The notes beneath the pieces were generated by a model that was given only the letters and a program-made list of their open reading frames with translations, did no database searches and was not told where the DNA came from. This document shows positions 9,401-47,196 of a stretch of 64,000 bases of DNA, piece by piece. The translations under genes and the position numbers were made by a program. The stretch is from Aquimarina aggregata (GTDB lineage: Bacteria; Bacteroidota; Bacteroidia; Flavobacteriales; Flavobacteriaceae). Where the stretch lies: assembly GCF_001632745.1 (NCBI RefSeq), contig NZ_LQRT01000008.1, positions 1 through 64,000 of the forward strand. The letters run 5' to 3'. The stretch's first letter is position 1. Each line of letters begins with the position of its first letter.

Positions 9401-10332
9401 AGATTAGTAGATTCTATTCTATTCCAATTGGCTCCTCCGTCTATAGATCTATATAATCCAGCTGTTTGGTATCCTAATCTATTTGTTGGATTGGATGCAT
9501 CTCCATAAATATGCGCTCCAACTCCAACGAATAACTCAGTTCGGTTTTCTGCTGTGTTGTTCCATGCAGTAACATCATTTACAAAGAAAATTCCTGATAA
9601 GAATAAATTGGTAGCACTAAATTCAAAAGTCGCGGGTCCGGCTGCCGGAATATTTACAGCTTGCCATGTTGATCCGCCATCAGTAGAACGGTATACACCA
9701 TTACCAACAACATCTCCAGCAGTATATTGCTCGCCGGTACCTATATAGAACGTATTAGAATTTCTTGGGTCTACGGTAATTGAAGTAACCGATAGATTTC
9801 CAGGAACATTTTCAATTCTACTCCATTGTGAATTGGCTGCTGTTATATTATCGTTTACCCATAATCCACCACTAACACCACCAGCAAAAACTCTTCTATT
9901 GGTATTATCATTTGGATCAAACATAATTGCTCTGGTACGACCACCAATATCATTTGGACCTCGTTCTATCCAGGGGTTGTTGGCAGCATCTCCGGGAGCT
10001 CTTTTTGATATTTCTTTTCTTAATTTTTGTTGAAGTAGGTGTACATTCTCAGGACTTGTTTTTCCTGTTTGTGGATTTAAGGTAAGTTCCCACATTTGTT
10101 CATAATACTTGTTGGGGGGTAATCCTTTAGACTTTCGTTCTGCTTTGCTAAGTTTTAATGTTTCTGTAAAAGGGCTGTTTTTTAAATGTTGAGCGTGTAA
10201 TGCTCTTTGAGCGGCGATAGTGCTGTCATTTTGTTTTTCTTGTTTTTCTAAGCCTGAACGGGTTAGAAATAAAGCTGAAAATACAGAAAGACTTAGCCCT
10301 AACGTGACGTAGCGTTTTAACTTTTGTTTCAT
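6481..10332 (-). CDS. Secreted BNR/sortilin-type beta-propeller protein with two CBM6-like modules and T9SS domain
   Basis: 1283 residues with a hydrophobic N-terminal export segment. Residues about 120-860 carry many propeller repeats of the VPS10/BNR kind (YRSTDGGSTW, FRSTNSGNSWTQ, WSSTNGGTNW), typical of exo-acting hydrolase or sortilin-like folds. Two tandem carbohydrate-binding CBM6-type modules follow (about 872-1024 and 1034-1181), each opening IPGTI-x-x-ENYDNGGQ and containing ANGEWLEYTI; they look like an internal duplication. The end (about 1204-1283, starting SLYPNPAIEK) is a T9SS type A sorting domain. The role is inferred as extracellular glycan binding, possibly hydrolysis; no sialidase catalytic set was identified. 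It converges on the neighbouring glycoside-hydrolase-like gene. Confidence 0.85.
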   Translation of the reverse strand: MKQKLKRYVTLGLSLSVFSALFLTRSGLEKQEKQNDSTIAAQRALHAQHLKNSPFTETLKLSKAERKSKGLPPNKYYEQMWELTLNPQTGKTSPENVHLLQQKLRKEISKRAPGDAANNPWIERGPNDIGGRTRAIMFDPNDNTNRRVFAGGVSGGLWVNDNITAANSQWSRIENVPGNLSVTSITVDPRNSNTFYIGTGEQYTAGDVVGNGVYRSTDGGSTWQAVNIPAAGPATFEFSATNLFLSGIFFVNDVTAWNNTAENRTELFVGVGAHIYGDASNPTNRLGYQTAGLYRSIDGGANWNRIESTNLRFTFSGANYYYIPNDLEIASDNSLWMGTIETPGLSNGGGRVFSSTNGATWTEATASPLPDSNRVELETSATDANTMYALTEGLARNAQDRLIDPVHIYRTTNRFGAVTETTLPNDVDTGIPANDFTRGQSFYNLMIEADPTNDDILYVGGIDLFRSTNSGNSWTQISKWSNNNNLAALPVSLVHADQHAMVFRPGNTNQAIFGNDGGVFYSNSLSTAGNNNVFGARNNNYNVTQYVKAAIGPNGVGDTAGIFTAGAQDNGSQAFRNVTPGINGSEELSDGDGFYTFVDRDGQFMIATFLHNIIYRFNLPWDGRSRIQGGATTLSNDDQTGDFVNQMGYDSQANFLLSNASSGTNFAIRTIDVANDRNSDIRNALLTAKPTALTPSPFANNTWLIGTANGGLLRLTNVGLGTANWAAITTPFVGSVSSVRFGATANDIMVTMHNYGVTSIWSSTNGGTNWVNKEGNLPDIPVRDILQNPLDRDEVIVGTQLGVWVTTNFNATNPTWSRSQNGMSDASVTSFDYWAINGDDNNNRIIASTYGRGVFTGSFTSNSNTPSGNTQTAFVSNSIPGTIQAENYDNGGQGVAYNDTTNNNIGGQGRTNQGVDITNTPDAGGGQIIGWTANGEWLEYTIGNVTPGTYNVTFRVASNVSNTKSIEALLGSQNLGNISIGNTGGWQTFTDLTLNNVVISNGNANQILRLNISGGSYNINWVRFEAVTSAQTAFAVQNIPGTIELENYDNGGQDVAYNDVDTSNNGGQGRTNEAVDVQTTTDAGGGTNVGWVANGEWLEYTIANTTAGTYAINIRVASPRNTAKSVQVSLGGVNLGTVAVPNTGGWQTWQTITIPSVTVSGGSNKVLRLTMVGGSFNINSVQFSSSVRNTAITSIANSNENSKNKASISLYPNPAIEKVQIDFGKIISTKVPVQFFDHLGRAIKSVEINTNNQSIDIQDLTTGLYFIKIGLENQTIQKTLVKR

Positions 10333-10556
10333 TTTAAGAGTTATTAATATTAGTAATAGCCACCTATGTGACGTTTGTGTATTTAAATAACAATCAAAAC
10401 AAAAGCTACCCTACTTTTTTTTAAGGAAAAATTAAGATAAGCTTAGTTTTTCCTTATTATGTTTTTACTAAAAATCAACTGTTATGAGATAGAAGCGGCT
10501 ATTAAAATAACTTACTTAGAACTAACGCGATATACGCTTATCGTTTTGGAATTTGA

Positions 10557-11765
10557 TTAATTCGAATTGGATTCGATTTTGGTAGATTCAATTTCTTTCT
10601 TAAGTTGAGTTATTCTTTTTTTAACTTTTTCTTCAAAAAAACTTTTGAAGGTTCTCTTTTGGTTTTTTACCGAAGTGTTTTCTTTTTCCCCAAACTTTTC
10701 CATGTATTTGGTGTAGTAGGAAAGTTTAGTTTTAGGATCTTTATAATAGGCATCTGCAAAAATGGCGAGTTGATATTGAGATCTAAGACTCTCTGGATTT
10801 TCTTTTAAAGATTTTTTCATAAAAGTAATCGCCTCTTTCCATTTCTCCTGATGTCTATAATTCATAGCCAAATTGTGATATTCTTTATCCAGACTATAGT
10901 CAAGAAGTGTAATCGCAATATGGTAGTATTTTTGAGCTTCTGCATAATTTTTAGTTTGACTGTAAAGCTCTGCTATCGTATAATACAATTTTGGATTTTT
11001 ATCGTCATAATTAAGTAATATACCATAGTATTTTAATGCTTCTTGGTATTCATACTCTTTATGATATGAGGTGGCAAGCATGCGGTAAATAAATTCATTT
11101 TTGAAATTCAATTTTAATAACTTCAAAAAATAAGGTATAGCCTTATCAAAGTGCTCTTTTTTGTAATAATTTTGCCCTAGAATACTTATAAGTTCTACAT
11201 TATTATTGTAATAAGAAAGACCTGTATTGGCATATTTGACAACACTATCATATGCTCTAAGTGACAAAAAATGTTTTGAAATTTTATAGCAACTCTTTTG
11301 GTGTGAATTATCTAAATTAAAAGCATTTTGGTAATAGTTTATAGCGGTACTATCCTTACGAATCTCTTTGACTAATCCTAATTGATATTGAAAATTGGGA
11401 TTCTTAGGGTATTTATAAATGAGCCCCCCAAAAATACTATCGGCTTTAACGAATTTTTTTGTTGTTATTAATAACTTTCCGTATTCAAATAAGGCTATCG
11501 TAGATTCTGAGTCTATATCGATAGCCTTTGAGTAAAAATTTAAGGCATCATCATAAGTTCCTATTGCTTTGTGAGCTCGTGCAATCTGCAAGAATGTATA
11601 ATTAGTATTGGGAGTTACATTTTCATATTTCTTTATGGCGTTTGTATAATCTCCAAGTTGAAATAATTTATCTGCTTCTACCACAGTGCTTGATTGCGCT
11701 TTAATAGGTGCGATTTTGCCCAAGAGGGCAGTCAGTATAAGTACTAAAAAATAATTACCCTTCAT
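10557..11765 (-). CDS. Secreted/periplasmic TPR protein, last gene of the BlaI-M56 operon
   Basis: 402 residues: a cleavable signal peptide (MKGNYFLVLILTALLG… ending near KAQ), then tetratricopeptide-like helix pairs through most of the chain (for example A-x-x-FYSKAIDIDSESTIALFEYGKLL and ALKYYGILLNYDDKNPKLYY), and a Lys/Glu-rich tail. TPRs are protein-docking scaffolds. Its start overlaps the end of the M56 gene by 11 bases, so the two are translationally linked and the TPR protein presumably works with the M56 sensors in the periplasm. The partner is unknown. Confidence 0.85.
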   Translation of the reverse strand: MKGNYFLVLILTALLGKIAPIKAQSSTVVEADKLFQLGDYTNAIKKYENVTPNTNYTFLQIARAHKAIGTYDDALNFYSKAIDIDSESTIALFEYGKLLITTKKFVKADSIFGGLIYKYPKNPNFQYQLGLVKEIRKDSTAINYYQNAFNLDNSHQKSCYKISKHFLSLRAYDSVVKYANTGLSYYNNNVELISILGQNYYKKEHFDKAIPYFLKLLKLNFKNEFIYRMLATSYHKEYEYQEALKYYGILLNYDDKNPKLYYTIAELYSQTKNYAEAQKYYHIAITLLDYSLDKEYHNLAMNYRHQEKWKEAITFMKKSLKENPESLRSQYQLAIFADAYYKDPKTKLSYYTKYMEKFGEKENTSVKNQKRTFKSFFEEKVKKRITQLKKEIESTKIESNSN

Positions 11766-42351: not shown

Positions 42352-43083
42352 CTATAAAGCTTCTTTTAACTGTAGGGCTCTAATTTTATAGATGCCATCA
42401 TAGGCTATTATTTCATCCAAAACTGAAATTACTATGTTTTTCTTATCGAGCTTTAGATAAGTAAGCGATAAGTACCATTTGGCGACCTCGTAAAACTTAC
42501 TATCTTTTTCAAAATCTTCAAATACTGTGATAGCTTTTTCTTCTTGATTTGTATTTAAGTAGCTATTGCCAAGATATAATTGTAACTTTTCTTTACGGTC
42601 TAGATTAGGTAGTTTTTCTAATTCTCCGATTACAGTTTCGTAATCTTTGTTATTGTAGTTTTCAATAATATCTTGTAACTGAGTGTCTGTTTTACCTCTG
42701 GTTGTATCTTCTGTTAAAAAAGGAGTGTAATACGCTAAATATAAATCTTGGGTATCAACGGTTTTGCCAGTATAGTTCCATACTAATGCTCCAATACTTA
42801 ATATGACTATAATAGAGGCCGCGATTTTCCAGGGTGCAGAAAAAAAAGAACTGCTAGCGGTTTCCTCTTCTTTAATCGCAGCACTTATTTTTATTAATTT
42901 TTTTTTAAAAGCGATAGTATCAGGATCACTTAATGCAGCATGTAAAGATTTATGTTTTTCAACTTCCTGGGATAGTTCAGGATTAAGCGATATTTCTTTT
43001 TCAAAAGCAATTAGCTCCTCTTTAGATAAAGAGCCAGCAATATAACTTTCGATTTTATCGAATATTTGTGGGGTTCGTTTCAT
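42352..43083 (-). CDS. Membrane-anchored anti-sigma-like protein with TPR-type periplasmic domain
   Basis: 243 residues. A cytosolic N-terminal part of about 85 residues (YIAGSLSKEELIAFEKEISLNPELSQEVEKHK) is typical of Bacteroidota anti-sigma-like proteins. A single membrane helix lies at about 86-104 (WKIAASIIVILSIGALVW). The C-terminal part holds TPR-like helices (YETVIGELEKLP, KEKLQLYLGNSYLNTNQEEKAI, EVAKWYLSLTYLKLDKK). Its start overlaps the sigma factor stop by 4 bases (ATGA), so they are co-translated; sequestration of the sigma factor is inferred. No zinc-binding HxxxCxxC motif. Confidence 0.82.
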   Translation of the reverse strand: MKRTPQIFDKIESYIAGSLSKEELIAFEKEISLNPELSQEVEKHKSLHAALSDPDTIAFKKKLIKISAAIKEEETASSSFFSAPWKIAASIIVILSIGALVWNYTGKTVDTQDLYLAYYTPFLTEDTTRGKTDTQLQDIIENYNNKDYETVIGELEKLPNLDRKEKLQLYLGNSYLNTNQEEKAITVFEDFEKDSKFYEVAKWYLSLTYLKLDKKNIVISVLDEIIAYDGIYKIRALQLKEAL

Positions 43084-43670
43084 AATTCGCTATTTTTTTG
43101 GGGAGTAAGCTGTAACTCCTTAAATGCAGTATCTTTTTCGATCATTTCGATTAAAGATTCCTTGCATTCAAATTTTTTCTTTCGGGTATACCCTTCGGTG
43201 TACCCAGTTATTTTAGCAATCTCTTTCATGCTATTGCCCTGAAAGAGTAAATTTAACACTTCGCGACAGCTATCACTTAATTTTAAGAAATATTTGCGAT
43301 AAATATGTTCGCGTTCACTATTTTCTATATCTTCTTGAACTTTAAGTTCTATAGTATCTGCAGTATCATAGATATTTTCTGCAAGTACTATTTTTTTGTT
43401 TTTTCGTAACCGATTTCTCCAAATGTTTTTACAAACAGCGTAGAAAAAGGTACGTAAAGAAGACTGAAGCTCTAAAGAATCTGTCTTTAGTTTTTGATAG
43501 ATCATGACTAATGCGTCTTGAAACACATCTTCTACATCTTCTTCGTTTCCTGAATTTTGTAGAATATATCGCCGTATATAAGGAAGGTTCTTTTTATAAA
43601 ACAAGGTTAAAACCTGTTCATCTCCTGCCGCGATACCCTTCAAAATTTTCTGATCTTCGGTGTTCTTCAT
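43080..43670 (-). CDS. ECF-type sigma-70 family RNA polymerase sigma factor
   Basis: 196 residues. Region 2: LTLFYKKNLPYIRRYILQNSGNEEDVEDVFQDALVMIYQKL; region 4: FLKLSDSCREVLNLLFQGNSMKEIAKITGYTEGYTRKKKFECKESL, with the -35-binding helix. No region 1 or 3, hence ECF class. It directs polymerase to a dedicated promoter set when released from its anti-sigma factor, encoded next. Divergent from the TPR-CHAT gene. Confidence 0.93.
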   Translation of the reverse strand: MKNTEDQKILKGIAAGDEQVLTLFYKKNLPYIRRYILQNSGNEEDVEDVFQDALVMIYQKLKTDSLELQSSLRTFFYAVCKNIWRNRLRKNKKIVLAENIYDTADTIELKVQEDIENSEREHIYRKYFLKLSDSCREVLNLLFQGNSMKEIAKITGYTEGYTRKKKFECKESLIEMIEKDTAFKELQLTPQKNSEL

Positions 43671-43687
43671 ACATTAATGTAATAAGA

Positions 43688-43700
43688 TAACAATTTGTTA
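43688..43700. promoter_or_regulatory. Dyad TAACAA-T-TTGTTA before the sigma gene
   Basis: 13-bp palindrome 18 bases upstream of the sigma factor start. Related AGTAAC(A/G)ATTTT copies occur at 43757-43768 and 43829-43840 in the same divergent region. Candidate autoregulatory sites; no function shown. Confidence 0.4.
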
Positions 43701-43887
43701 CCTTTTTAGATGGATTTTTTTATTTTATGTCGAACTATTGGTATAAGAACTGTAAAAGTAACAATTTTAGTGTCTTTGGTATTAATAAAGAAAGGAAACA
43801 ATTGATAAGTGACACTAGTATTGAAATTAGTAACGATTTTTATACTGTAATATAGCTTATATAAGTAAACAATAAGTCATAAAAATA

Positions 43888-46800
43888 ATGGTAATACGAC
43901 CCAGAGATATACCAAAGAGACTGTCATTATATTTTAAAATGACATGTTACTTCATTTTTTTTAATACAATAGTATCCTACAGTCAAACCACAGATACTTT
44001 GGTTGCCTATCAACATTTTGTAAAAGCAGATTCACTATTAACAAATAAGAGCTATGAGGAATCTATAAAATATTTTAAAAAAGCATTACCTATTTATAAA
44101 AAAGCAAAAGCGTGGGAACGAGTGGCTAGGTGTTATAATAGGATTGCTGAAAACCTACAACATAATTACGAACTCGAAAAATCGTTACAGAATGCAAAGG
44201 AAGCATTGACAATCAGTAATTCTTATCTTCAAAAAGAGAATAAAGAAAAAGCTTATGTTTATGATAATATGGGGAAGTATTATAATGAAAAAGAAGATTT
44301 TGAAAAAGCTCTAAAATTTTACTCAAAAGCATTATCGATTAGACAAAGACTCTTAGGAAAAGAACATATAGATATTGCTACATCATACAGTAACCTTGCT
44401 TTGACTTATTATCATACTTCCTTGTATAAGAAAGCTATCGAATATCATAATAAAGCATTGGTTATTAATTTAAATACATTAGGGGCAGATCATCAAAAAA
44501 TAGGTAATACGTATAATAATATTGGTATTGTTTATAAAAGATTAGGTAATTATAAAAGGGCGCTTTATTATTTCGAAAAGGATTTAAAAATAACAATCAA
44601 AAACTCTGGAGAACATCACCTCTATGCTAGTTACAGTTATAATAATATAGGGTTGATATATGCTGAGACTAAGCAAAATGATAAAGCAATAGCGTATTAT
44701 CAAAGAGCATTATCAATTTTGATTCAAGAAGATAACATATATGGGATGAATATTTTATATAATAACATTGGTAATCTTTTAGATGAAAAAGGTGAATTTG
44801 ACGAAGCGCTGGAGTATTATAAGAAAAGCCTGAATATGAGACTTAAATTATATGGTGATTCCCACTCAGAAATCGGAACCATATACAATAATATTGGTGT
44901 TACCTATATAAATAAAAGCGATTATAAAAATGCATTACGTTATTTTTCTAAAGCATTAAAAGTTTTTAAATCTTTATATAAAAAAAATCATTACAATATC
45001 GCATTTGAATATGCTAATCTAGGAAGTGTTTACATCCGTAAAAAAGAATATGATAATGCTTTAAAATATTACAAAAAAGCTCTAAAAATATATAAAGCTA
45101 TTGATATAAGTGATCAAATAGATATCGCAGATGTGTATCTAAATATTGCGATTGTTTATAGTAAAAAGGAAGAGTATACTAATGCATTGCTAAATTCTGA
45201 AAAAAGTTTAAAGATTCTTCAAAACAAATATGGAGAAAAACATTCGCTTGCAATGGAGTCATATCTTAATATTGCCGAAATTTATAATAAACGGAAAAAA
45301 CACGTAAAAGCAATTTCTTATTATGATACGGTATTATTAATAAATACTAAAAATGTTTTTAAGAAGATTTCAAAAAACACTTTCGATTCAAATTATTATT
45401 ATGATCAGAAATTGCTTTTGAAAACTCTTACAGGAAAAGCTCGAAGCTTTCTTTTTCAATATAAAAAAAGTAGCGCAATAAAGGATCTTAAAGAAGCGAT
45501 TTTGACTTATCAAAAAATAGATACTTTAATTAACACGGTCAGGCATTCGTATACTAATTATAATGACAAAGTAACCTTTGCTAAAAAAACAGCAAAAATA
45601 TATCAAGGTGCCATAGCCTCACACTTATTGGCATACAAAGTAACCAAAGATCAAAAATCACTAGAAAAAGCATTTTATTATTCAGAGAAGAGTAAAGCCA
45701 ATACGCTAAAAGAACTACTAGCTGCGGCTAATGCTACAAACTATGCGGGATTACCAAAAGAAGTTTTAGAACTAGAAAAAGAATTACGAATTGATCAAGC
45801 CTTTTATCAATCTAAAATTACAGAAGAACGCACAAAACAAAGGATAGATTCCTCAAAGATTATAGATTATGAGAATCGGCTTTTTGATATAAGTAAACGG
45901 CAAGATTCACTTACCATGATTTTAGAAAAAGAGTATCCTAAATATCATCAATTAAAGCATAAAAATGCGCTTGTTTCGGTATCAGATATACAACAAAAGC
46001 TAAAAGCAAACACGACCTTGTTAGAATTTTTTGTTTCAGATAATATTGTATATGCGTTTACCATCTCTAAAGATAAATTAGATGTCAAAGAAATAACAGT
46101 TTCAGATGTAAGTAAGAATATAGAAATACTTAAAGAATCTATTATTGCCAAAGATATACAAGAGTATAAGAAAGTTGCTTATGGTCTATATTCGCAATTA
46201 ATAGCACCTATACAAGATAGGCTAACTGGCGGCGATGAGTTAATTATTGTTCCCGATGGAGCATTATGGCATTGCAATTTTGAGTTGTTACTTACCCAGC
46301 AGGATAGTTCTAACAATCCTAAGTCATTATCATATTTGTTAAAAGAGTTTGCGATCAGTTATGCTAATTCAGCAAGTTTATTGTTTCAATCATCGAATAC
46401 AAAATCTGTTCACCAGGAAAAAGAAGATTGTTTGGCGTTTTCATTTTCAAATAGCACAACTGTAATAGATGCCAAAACGATGAGTTTGGCAACTTTGAGA
46501 AATGCTGGAGATGATTTACCTGGTACACGAAGAGAAATCAGAGAAATTTCAGAAATTATAGATGGTCAGTATTATTTCGGATCTCAGGCAATAGAATCTA
46601 ATTTTAAGCGAAATGCAAATCGGTATAACATCTTACATCTGGCATTGCATGGAGATGTAGATCATAAGCGTCCAGAAAACTCAAAGCTGTATTTTACCAA
46701 AAGTAAAGACACTATCGATGATAACTTATTGTATGCTCATGAGTTATTTGCGATGGATATCCCAGCAGAGCTTACCGTATTAAGCGCCTGCAATACAGGT

Positions 46801-47196
46801 ACAGGAAAGGTTGCCAAAGGCGAAGGGATTATGAGTTTAGGTAGTGCGTTTCAATATGCAGGTACCAAGAGTTTGTTGTTAAGCAGTTGGGCGGTATCAG
46901 ATCAAACAACACCAGAGTTGATGAAATACTTTTATACAAACCTAAAAGAAGGGATGAATAAGTCCAAGGCATTACAACAAGCAAAACTACAATACTTACA
47001 AACAGCCAATTTAGATCGTGTTCACCCATGGTATTGGGGAGGCTTTTATGTAGTTGGTGATACTACTGCAATACAGTTTACTAGTAATACATCGTGGTAT
47101 TGGATTTTAGGAATAGTATTATTTGTATTAATTTTAGCGAGATTTGTATATAAAAGAAATTCTAACAAAACAAAGAAATTATCTTACGATATTTAA
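43888..47196 (+). CDS. TPR-CHAT protease, membrane-anchored
   Basis: 1102 residues. An N-terminal hydrophobic signal (MTCYFIFFNTIVSYSQ; start could be Met18 at 43939) suggests export. Around ten TPRs of the kinesin-light-chain type follow (about 40-470, e.g. IGTIYNNIGVTYINKSDYKNALRYF). The C-terminal third is a CHAT caspase-like peptidase with catalytic H921 (LHLALHGD) and C968 (LSACNTGTG), then WGGFYVVGD and one membrane helix (WYWILGIVLFVLILARFVY) near the end. It would therefore present TPR and peptidase in the periplasm. It is divergent from the ECF sigma/anti-sigma pair. CHAT proteases with TPRs serve as regulated proteases in several systems; the substrate here is unknown. Confidence 0.88.
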   Translation: MVIRPRDIPKRLSLYFKMTCYFIFFNTIVSYSQTTDTLVAYQHFVKADSLLTNKSYEESIKYFKKALPIYKKAKAWERVARCYNRIAENLQHNYELEKSLQNAKEALTISNSYLQKENKEKAYVYDNMGKYYNEKEDFEKALKFYSKALSIRQRLLGKEHIDIATSYSNLALTYYHTSLYKKAIEYHNKALVINLNTLGADHQKIGNTYNNIGIVYKRLGNYKRALYYFEKDLKITIKNSGEHHLYASYSYNNIGLIYAETKQNDKAIAYYQRALSILIQEDNIYGMNILYNNIGNLLDEKGEFDEALEYYKKSLNMRLKLYGDSHSEIGTIYNNIGVTYINKSDYKNALRYFSKALKVFKSLYKKNHYNIAFEYANLGSVYIRKKEYDNALKYYKKALKIYKAIDISDQIDIADVYLNIAIVYSKKEEYTNALLNSEKSLKILQNKYGEKHSLAMESYLNIAEIYNKRKKHVKAISYYDTVLLINTKNVFKKISKNTFDSNYYYDQKLLLKTLTGKARSFLFQYKKSSAIKDLKEAILTYQKIDTLINTVRHSYTNYNDKVTFAKKTAKIYQGAIASHLLAYKVTKDQKSLEKAFYYSEKSKANTLKELLAAANATNYAGLPKEVLELEKELRIDQAFYQSKITEERTKQRIDSSKIIDYENRLFDISKRQDSLTMILEKEYPKYHQLKHKNALVSVSDIQQKLKANTTLLEFFVSDNIVYAFTISKDKLDVKEITVSDVSKNIEILKESIIAKDIQEYKKVAYGLYSQLIAPIQDRLTGGDELIIVPDGALWHCNFELLLTQQDSSNNPKSLSYLLKEFAISYANSASLLFQSSNTKSVHQEKEDCLAFSFSNSTTVIDAKTMSLATLRNAGDDLPGTRREIREISEIIDGQYYFGSQAIESNFKRNANRYNILHLALHGDVDHKRPENSKLYFTKSKDTIDDNLLYAHELFAMDIPAELTVLSACNTGTGKVAKGEGIMSLGSAFQYAGTKSLLLSSWAVSDQTTPELMKYFYTNLKEGMNKSKALQQAKLQYLQTANLDRVHPWYWGGFYVVGDTTAIQFTSNTSWYWILGIVLFVLILARFVYKRNSNKTKKLSYDI

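Follow-up and report, generated by a model that had tools for sequence, protein, structure and literature searches.

The locus in Aquimarina aggregata

A 64,000-nucleotide stretch of the Aquimarina aggregata genome (contig NZ_LQRT01000008.1, positions 1 to 64,000; hereafter the window) carries neighbouring genes for an extracytoplasmic function (ECF) sigma factor, an anti-sigma-like membrane protein and a TPR-CHAT protein, in which tetratricopeptide repeats (TPRs) stand ahead of a CHAT protease domain. Here we describe this trio as a conserved module, and argue that its protease may cut the anti-sigma-like protein outside the membrane. The source genome comprises 6.19 Mb in 60 contigs and is 100% complete.

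The sigma factor gene occupies 43080..43670 on the minus strand and encodes 196 amino acids (aa). Its open reading frame (ORF) matches Sigma70_r2 of Pfam (E 7.6e-9; 35.7 bits against a cut-off of 24) and the NCBIfam profile TIGR02937 (6.3e-20; 71.5 bits against 42.9), and on these profiles the product is an ECF sigma factor. The ORF for the anti-sigma-like protein (42352..43083, minus strand, 243 aa) overlaps the sigma gene by 4 bases. On the other side, a gap of 217 bases (43671-43887) without any intervening gene separates the sigma gene from the divergent TPR-CHAT gene (43888..47196, plus strand, 1102 aa). The initial annotation of this DNA had described the same overlap and spacing, and the coordinates agree.

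The long protein combines a signal-like N-terminus, a TPR superhelix, a CHAT domain, a C-terminal transmembrane helix and a basic tail. It matches TPR_12 at 2.9e-78 and CHAT (PF12770) at E values from 2.9e-61 to 2.8e-62, the CHAT domain covering residues 763-1058 (46174..47061, plus strand). Judged by its sequence, it belongs to the TPR-CHAT proteases, with a His/Cys dyad in the CHAT domain and a TPR superhelix ahead of it.

The assignment of the anti-sigma-like protein is weaker than those of its two neighbours. No Pfam family scored above cut-off in a Pfam scan, and the NCBIfam 'antisigma' match (NF052375) reached 19.5 bits, far below its cut-off of 100. We make the assignment because the gene overlaps that of the sigma factor and the product has a four-helix N-terminus, one transmembrane helix and a TPR-like outer part.

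A conserved module across Bacteroidota

The first sign of a module was that the source genome holds the same trio in two gene orders. Its four CHAT genes include the window copy. On contig C24 lies a paralogous, co-directional trio (sigma factor 195 aa, anti-sigma 248 aa, CHAT 1044 aa), and on C35 a sigma/anti-sigma pair faces away from a series of genes, the last of which are a CHAT gene and an aspartyl-protease-like gene. The latter, a small retropepsin-like gene (10182-10619 of locus L007), overlaps the end of the CHAT gene. The fourth CHAT copy, on C11 (5574-9116 of L006), is interrupted by an in-frame stop that divides the TPR part from the CHAT part.

We surveyed 199 Flavobacteriaceae genomes with an anti-sigma profile built from two sequences. 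Matches occurred in 88 of the 199 genomes, as did CHAT. With anti-sigma matches under 500 nt set aside, 83 genomes had the anti-sigma and 88 CHAT: 77 had both, 6 the anti-sigma only and 11 CHAT only (Fisher p 2.5e-35, the relatedness of species being ignored). A listed CHAT gene lay within 10 kb of at least 117 of the 139 anti-sigma matches listed. After 8 matches under 500 nt were set aside, the figure was at least 117 of 131, where CHAT number and genome size would lead one to expect 1.63; these linkage counts are lower bounds resting on the CHAT matches listed. The 117 linked matches fall into four gene orders: 49 are divergent, 37 convergent, 26 co-directional with CHAT downstream and 5 co-directional with CHAT upstream.

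The association extends beyond this family. Across 296 Bacteroidota genomes, a 61-row anti-sigma profile found matches in 117 (E 1e-10, some of them short), and CHAT was present in 147. Outside Flavobacteriaceae, at least 40 of the 85 longer anti-sigma matches that were kept have a listed CHAT gene within 10 kb. The remaining 45 of 85, first counted as unlinked, are an overcount, a CHAT gene being present in 9 of 20 loci fetched as unlinked. The trio is thus confirmed as a conserved module and not a chance arrangement. The initial annotation had named a lack of conserved synteny as grounds for rejecting its proposal; the linkage in Flavobacteriaceae rules this out, and further families show it too.

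For closer comparison we assembled a first set of 129 loci (115 linked loci from outside the source genome, 5 unlinked, 3 from the source genome and 6 from Aquimarina), a few of which are cut by contig ends. Their layouts were designated A (sigma, anti-sigma, CHAT), B (sigma and anti-sigma facing CHAT), D (CHAT divergent from sigma and anti-sigma) and F (rare). Among the D layouts, D0 has no gene between and includes the window, and the others have several genes between. The window order is in the minority, with 5 of 121 other linked anti-sigma genes of this set sharing it. Of the 127 anti-sigma genes called in the set, 125 immediately follow a sigma gene in the same orientation; L175 and L178 are the exceptions.

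Fold and predicted topology

The catalytic pair predicted in the window protein, H921 (codon 46648..46650, plus strand) and C968 (46789..46791, plus strand), is kept in all 125 CHAT proteins compared in the first set, so that the intact dyad noted in the initial annotation proves general among relatives. A structure comparison of the CHAT model gave a clear match to Csx29 and to separases. Sequence searches against solved structures returned TPR matches for the whole protein (all of the best 60 of 79 rows); the CHAT part alone matched 8rot_B and Craspase CHAT chains at 7e-7 to 4e-5.

Several features suggest that the CHAT protein is exported and anchored in the membrane by its C-terminal helix. 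Of the 121 CHAT proteins that reach 800 aa, 113 have a hydrophobic segment at each end, and in 120 the positive charge is greater on the side of the C-terminal tail. The N-terminal signal test, simple hydropathy rather than a trained predictor, found a segment in 40 of 121 with a 19-residue window and in 114 of 121 with a looser 10-residue window, the threshold having been loosened after the first result from the look of the N-termini. A cytosolic CHAT domain, which the initial annotation had considered as an objection, is contradicted by this prediction.

The AlphaFold2 model of the anti-sigma-like protein has a mean predicted local distance difference test score (pLDDT) of 90.1 and a predicted template modelling score (pTM) of 0.61. 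It shows four N-terminal helices within residues 5-76, a transmembrane segment at 85-105, a helix at 111-118, a non-helical stretch at 119-133 and TPR-like helices at 134-242, as expected from the earlier description of a TPR-like outer part. A structure search with this model gave no match at E 0.001 or better; its best 50 rows were mostly TPR-type proteins. With a 19-residue hydropathy window, 107 of 127 anti-sigma proteins showed a single transmembrane segment and the remaining 20 showed none. Lysine and arginine average 3.9 per 15 residues before the transmembrane segment vs 0.85 after it in 168 homologues, and the excess lies before it in 157 of them, with 7 ties. Because these residues lie before the segment and not after it, the N-terminus is predicted to be inside and the linker and TPR-like domain to be periplasmic. 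The predicted topologies agree with the earlier suggestion that both proteins could meet in the periplasm.

A juxtamembrane motif and its relation to the predicted CHAT pocket

The linker of the anti-sigma proteins carries a motif, x-[TSE]-R/[GS] (the slash marks the proposed cut), which reads GLPTTM/[SG] in one clade. It lies a median of 25 residues from the transmembrane segment, on the outer side. In the window the proposed cleavage site is ...TEDTTR/GK..., at R129-G130 (codons 42694..42699, minus strand), placed by column conservation and by its position in the model, within the non-helical stretch. Conservation reaches 3.0 bits at both 129 and 130, compared with 3.4 at Y115, 2.7 at Y118 and 1-2 at most other linker positions. 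Among 122 CHAT-linked proteins, the window included, residue 129 is R in 87, M in 22, K in 8, Q in 2 and N, T or S in one each, and residue 130 is G in 75, S in 39 and another residue in 8. The N, T and S rows (L106, L115, L116) read VLRD, VIRD and ALRD, with an Arg one or two positions off. The looser pattern [RKM][GSAND] occurs in the linker of 119 of 122, which would often be expected by chance, so that column conservation is the better measure.

The M form, mostly GLPTTM/[SG], is that of layout A. Of the M-clade proteins that lack a CHAT neighbour, five were read (L175-L178 and L240), and in each the motif is altered or lost, even if L176 retains its Met (SM/NH). Among the matches listed, no CHAT gene occurs in the genomes of L175, L178 and L240, and other CHAT genes occur elsewhere in those of L176 and L177.

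The identity of residue 129 tracks one position of the partner CHAT domain. Residue 883, a glutamate in the window (codon 46534..46536, plus strand), is acidic in 88 of 88 proteins of the first set (window included) whose partner has R at 129, in 6 of 8 with K, 1 of 2 with Q, 0 of 23 with M and 3 of 3 with N, T or S. Compared column by column, partners with R or K (n=96) and those with M (n=23) differ most in acidity at 883, which is acidic in 94 of 96 vs 0 of 23; the difference is 0.98, against 0.54 at the CHAT column ranked second. Residue 883 takes both forms within G195, a single Flavobacteriaceae genome with 9 CHAT and 8 anti-sigma matches (L108, L135, L143, L160, L161, L163, L164, L172): it is non-acidic in L160 (Q) and L164 (K), and acidic in L135 and L161 (K or Q).

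We examined the same relation in a second set, for which 40 loci outside Flavobacteriaceae were selected among the 85 kept matches; 29 CHAT rows were aligned, one of them a fragment without column 883 (L235). Read by eye, an Arg motif accompanies E883 in all 24 rows that have it, and a Met motif is present in all 4 rows that lack it (L209, L229, L234, L241), a reading made after the idea had formed and not blind. By aligned column, the E883 rows have R in 23 and a gap in 1, and the rows without E883 have M in 2, R in 1 (L234) and S in 1 (L241). The pairing of R with an acidic 883 is thus largely repeated in other families. A fixed pattern rule applied to both sets gave, for R, 114 acidic and 1 not (the fragment); for M, 27 non-acidic and 1 acidic (L113, motif EKG); for K, 4 acidic and 2 not; and where no call was made, 3 acidic and 1 not. 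In a tree of 154 CHAT domains from which column 883 had been removed, R and M switch twice on supported branches and 883 switches likewise both times, needing 3 changes in all. The covariation is consistent, but the independent events behind it are far too few for a test.

The position of 883 gives this relation a possible structural meaning. In the CHAT model it lies in the helix 880-888, after the strand 846-852. Arg64 of caspase-3 and Asp163 of gingipain-R hold the P1 residue; both stand after beta1, where helix alpha1 begins, and Glu or Asp is reported at that place in separases (PMC4626109). The modelled position of 883 matches these P1 anchors, and we predict that E883 is the acid of the S1 pocket that holds a P1 Arg. 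Human separase also uses D2070, past the catalytic Cys2029 in sequence, to hold the P1 Arg (PMC12609080), so that the S1 role of E883 is one that we infer from position and covariation. The printed Craspase alignments show a gap at this position.

Relation to known systems

Escherichia coli DegS cuts the one-transmembrane anti-sigma factor RseA outside the membrane and frees RpoE, in regulated intramembrane proteolysis. The cut proposed here would likewise fall on a one-transmembrane anti-sigma outside the membrane and free an ECF sigma factor. It differs in that the site-1 protease would be a CHAT cysteine protease with TPRs, whereas DegS is a PDZ serine protease, and in that the outer domain of the window anti-sigma is TPR-like.

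Craspase, the type III-E CRISPR (clustered regularly interspaced short palindromic repeats) system, resembles the window in pairing a TPR-CHAT protease with a sigma inhibitor and a sigma factor. Unlike in Craspase, the window CHAT protein is predicted to be exported and membrane-anchored, and the window inhibitor to be a one-transmembrane protein, whereas the Craspase inhibitor Csx30 is a non-membrane protein. In Craspase the TPR-CHAT protein Csx29 cuts Csx30, the sigma factor being CASP-sigma, and deleting M427 of Csx30 prevents cleavage (PMC10028731). The mechanism proposed for the window trio would be that of Craspase, transferred to the sort of site at which DegS cuts RseA. Proteolysis by CalpL also frees a sigma factor from an anti-sigma factor (CalpL-CalpT-CalpS), and the SAVED-CHAT of type III CRISPR is a CHAT protease in a proteolytic cascade (PMC11229360). 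Both are described there as switched by cyclic oligoadenylates through SAVED, a domain that Pfam did not report in the window CHAT protein. Separases differ in being eukaryotic and in cutting cohesin at ExxR (PMC4626109, PMC12609080), whereas no Glu is conserved three residues before the motif Arg in the anti-sigma alignment.

The window trio is not a member of type III-E CRISPR. The whole genome gave no match to cas1 (PF01867), for which the control search succeeded in 9 of 14 genomes, and none to the RAMP domain (PF03787; control 4 of 14), no dedicated Cas7-11 profile having been used and CRISPR arrays not having been sought. This fits the CRISPR-independent role that had been suggested from the sequence. 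A reading as a defence system was dropped: the only PADLOC matches were a generic TPR one (CHAT protein) and a weak one (sigma factor), and no cas1 or RAMP gene was found. We found no description of the module in the open-access literature searched, most subscription journals and all supplements being beyond reach.

Promoter-like sites

In the window, the sigma and CHAT genes carry similar GTAACAA promoter-like sites. The putative sigma-autoregulated promoter (43671..43702, minus strand; GGTAACAA ... ACATTAAT) places GTAAC 31 bases before the sigma start codon. The same place and -35 element recur with small changes in 7 of 9 relatives (L053, L054, L056-L059 and L174), which belong to the D0 loci and their near kin, and not in L055 or L005. 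The putative CHAT promoter (43758..43785, plus strand; GTAACAATTTTAGTGTCTTTGGTATTAA) is kept in L053, L056 and L057, is weaker in L058 and was not seen in L059. A related GTAACAATTTTAG...TATTAA site faces CHAT in the window, L053, L056 and L057. Searching the genome with the CHAT promoter pattern at up to 3 mismatches returned the window site only, and consequently no regulon could be read from it.

Across layouts, GTAACA precedes the divergent CHAT operon in 25 of 30 D2-D5 loci vs 1.9 expected, mostly as GGGTAACA with TTGATATAAG downstream, and in 8 of 19 D1 loci vs 1.2 expected. In D1-D5 the site faces the CHAT operon and not the sigma gene. Few loci showed a fixed -10 pattern. Since the enrichment is slight or absent outside D layouts, feedback of the sigma factor on its own operon or on CHAT is plausible from these sites for D layouts only.

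A proposed membrane-tethered sigma switch

From these computed features we infer a switch in which the anti-sigma-like protein would retain the ECF sigma factor on the inner side of the membrane, with its linker and TPR-like domain in the periplasm. The TPR-CHAT protein would be exported and anchored by its C-terminal helix, and its long TPR superhelix would probably read the signal. The His921/Cys968 dyad would then cut the anti-sigma after R129 (TTR/G), about 25 residues outside the membrane. As with RseA and DegS, a site-2 protease would handle the remaining stump; the sigma factor would be freed and would in turn drive both its own operon and the CHAT gene from the similar GTAACAA promoters. 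The genome encodes one Peptidase_M50 protein (1.4e-49); the family was also found in 14 of 14 control genomes, which makes it weak evidence for a site-2 step.

We consider it probable that CHAT acts as the site-1 protease, cutting at R129/G130, in a CRISPR-independent, membrane-tethered sigma switch. The original proposal, that CHAT cleaves the anti-sigma outside the membrane independently of CRISPR, is supported as an interpretation because of the juxtamembrane motif, its covariation with the predicted S1-pocket residue, the fold match to Csx29 and separases, and the lack of a cas1 or RAMP gene in the genome.

Several results weigh against it. R-class anti-sigma proteins without a nearby CHAT gene mostly retain the motif (L055, L174, L051, L052, L228, L230 and others), so that motif decay is observed in just a single clade. 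CHAT genes lie elsewhere in some of these genomes, and the drafts that contain L051 and L052 are about 80% complete; L228, which keeps the motif with no CHAT among the listed matches of its genome, is an outright exception. Further, strict column alignment pairs R with S883 in L234, and two K partners and one Q partner in the D1 layout have a non-acidic 883. Counting K as non-Arg brings the changes on the tree to 6; of 3 supported pairs, 883 moves with residue 129 in a median of 1, is unchanged in 2 and never moves in the opposite direction. With only 2 changes between R and M on the tree, a sign test cannot reach significance. In the source genome itself, the C35 CHAT gene is separated from its sigma pair by four called genes, and the C11 copy has no sigma pair among its listed neighbours. 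Finally, layouts A and B show little or no enrichment of GTAAC upstream of sigma (A 2 of 26 vs 3.3 expected; B 6 of 36 vs 5.1) or CHAT (A 7 of 26 vs 2.7; B 6 of 36 vs 4.2).

The most serious alternative, although in our view an unlikely one, is that CHAT is an output of the sigma factor, a periplasmic effector with another substrate, the anti-sigma being released in some other way. The promoter-like sites would suit such a role, pointing as they do at the CHAT gene or operon (25 of 30 D2-D5 loci), as would the D loci examined for insert genes, in which CHAT shares an operon with lipoprotein-like and surface-type proteins. Yet it leaves unexplained why the linker residue and the CHAT pocket track each other, and why the motif is altered in M-clade proteins without a CHAT neighbour. 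The two roles are also compatible, as a protease can sit in its own regulon.

Less probable still, and in our estimation improbable, is that another envelope protease cuts the linker and that CHAT has just a presenting or sensing role, such as through contact between TPRs. The S8 subtilase insert proteins at four tested loci (described below) indicate that other proteases are at hand, but the catalytic pair is intact in all 125 CHAT proteins, the pocket and site are related in the manner of enzyme and substrate, and the window has no gene between sigma and CHAT. A chance or inherited neighbourhood without mutual action, in which the covariation would be clade history, is very hard to credit: it can draw on the small number of independent switches between R and M (2), but at least 117 of 131 matches are linked vs 1.63 expected, and four gene orders with the same partners speak for repeated rearrangement without separation.

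Wider significance

We lean towards the broader view that the module represents a large, undescribed, Bacteroidota-wide class of envelope signalling, in which a TPR anti-sigma is served by its own dedicated site-1 protease, an exported and anchored separase-like CHAT protein, with pocket and cut site co-evolving (Glu with Arg, hydrophobic with Met). CHAT proteases are, to our knowledge, known mainly from CRISPR systems, and the module would give them a widespread envelope role outside CRISPR. If so, the CRISPR Craspase would be one cytosolic, captured form of a more general CHAT/anti-sigma/sigma theme, and the module would suggest an origin for its arrangement. Further, only 6% of Bacteroidetes ECF sigma factors are reported to lie beside a class I anti-sigma domain, and other modes of regulation have been suggested (PMC7406223); a recurrent sigma/anti-sigma/CHAT module would partly fill this gap. 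The predicted cut site and the predicted specificity residue are each open to test by one mutation.

Additional observations at related loci

Five close paralogues of the window sigma factor occur elsewhere in the genome (E 4e-26 or better); for three of them (C10, C14, C46), no such anti-sigma was found among the ORFs listed beside them. The closest Aquimarina relative, L053, has tandem CHAT genes (1199 and 1127 aa) divergent from its sigma pair.

Where a single insert gene (419-455 aa) lies between the sigma pair and CHAT, it encoded an S8 subtilase (PF00082) in all four cases tested (L083, L136 and L163 in layout D1, and L081 in layout A1), each with an N-terminus that looks lipoprotein-like by eye. 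A two-protease cascade is possible at these loci. Pfam gave no match for two shorter insert proteins (L101, L134). In D2-D5 loci (L117 5235-8848 and relatives), CHAT operons include a protein of about 650 aa with PKD and DUF7849 domains and a 330-aa lipoprotein-like gene before CHAT, the Pfam assignment coming from L117 alone. At L147, L151 and L171, a sigma-like gene (206-208 aa) follows CHAT co-directionally, past a gene of about 150 aa.

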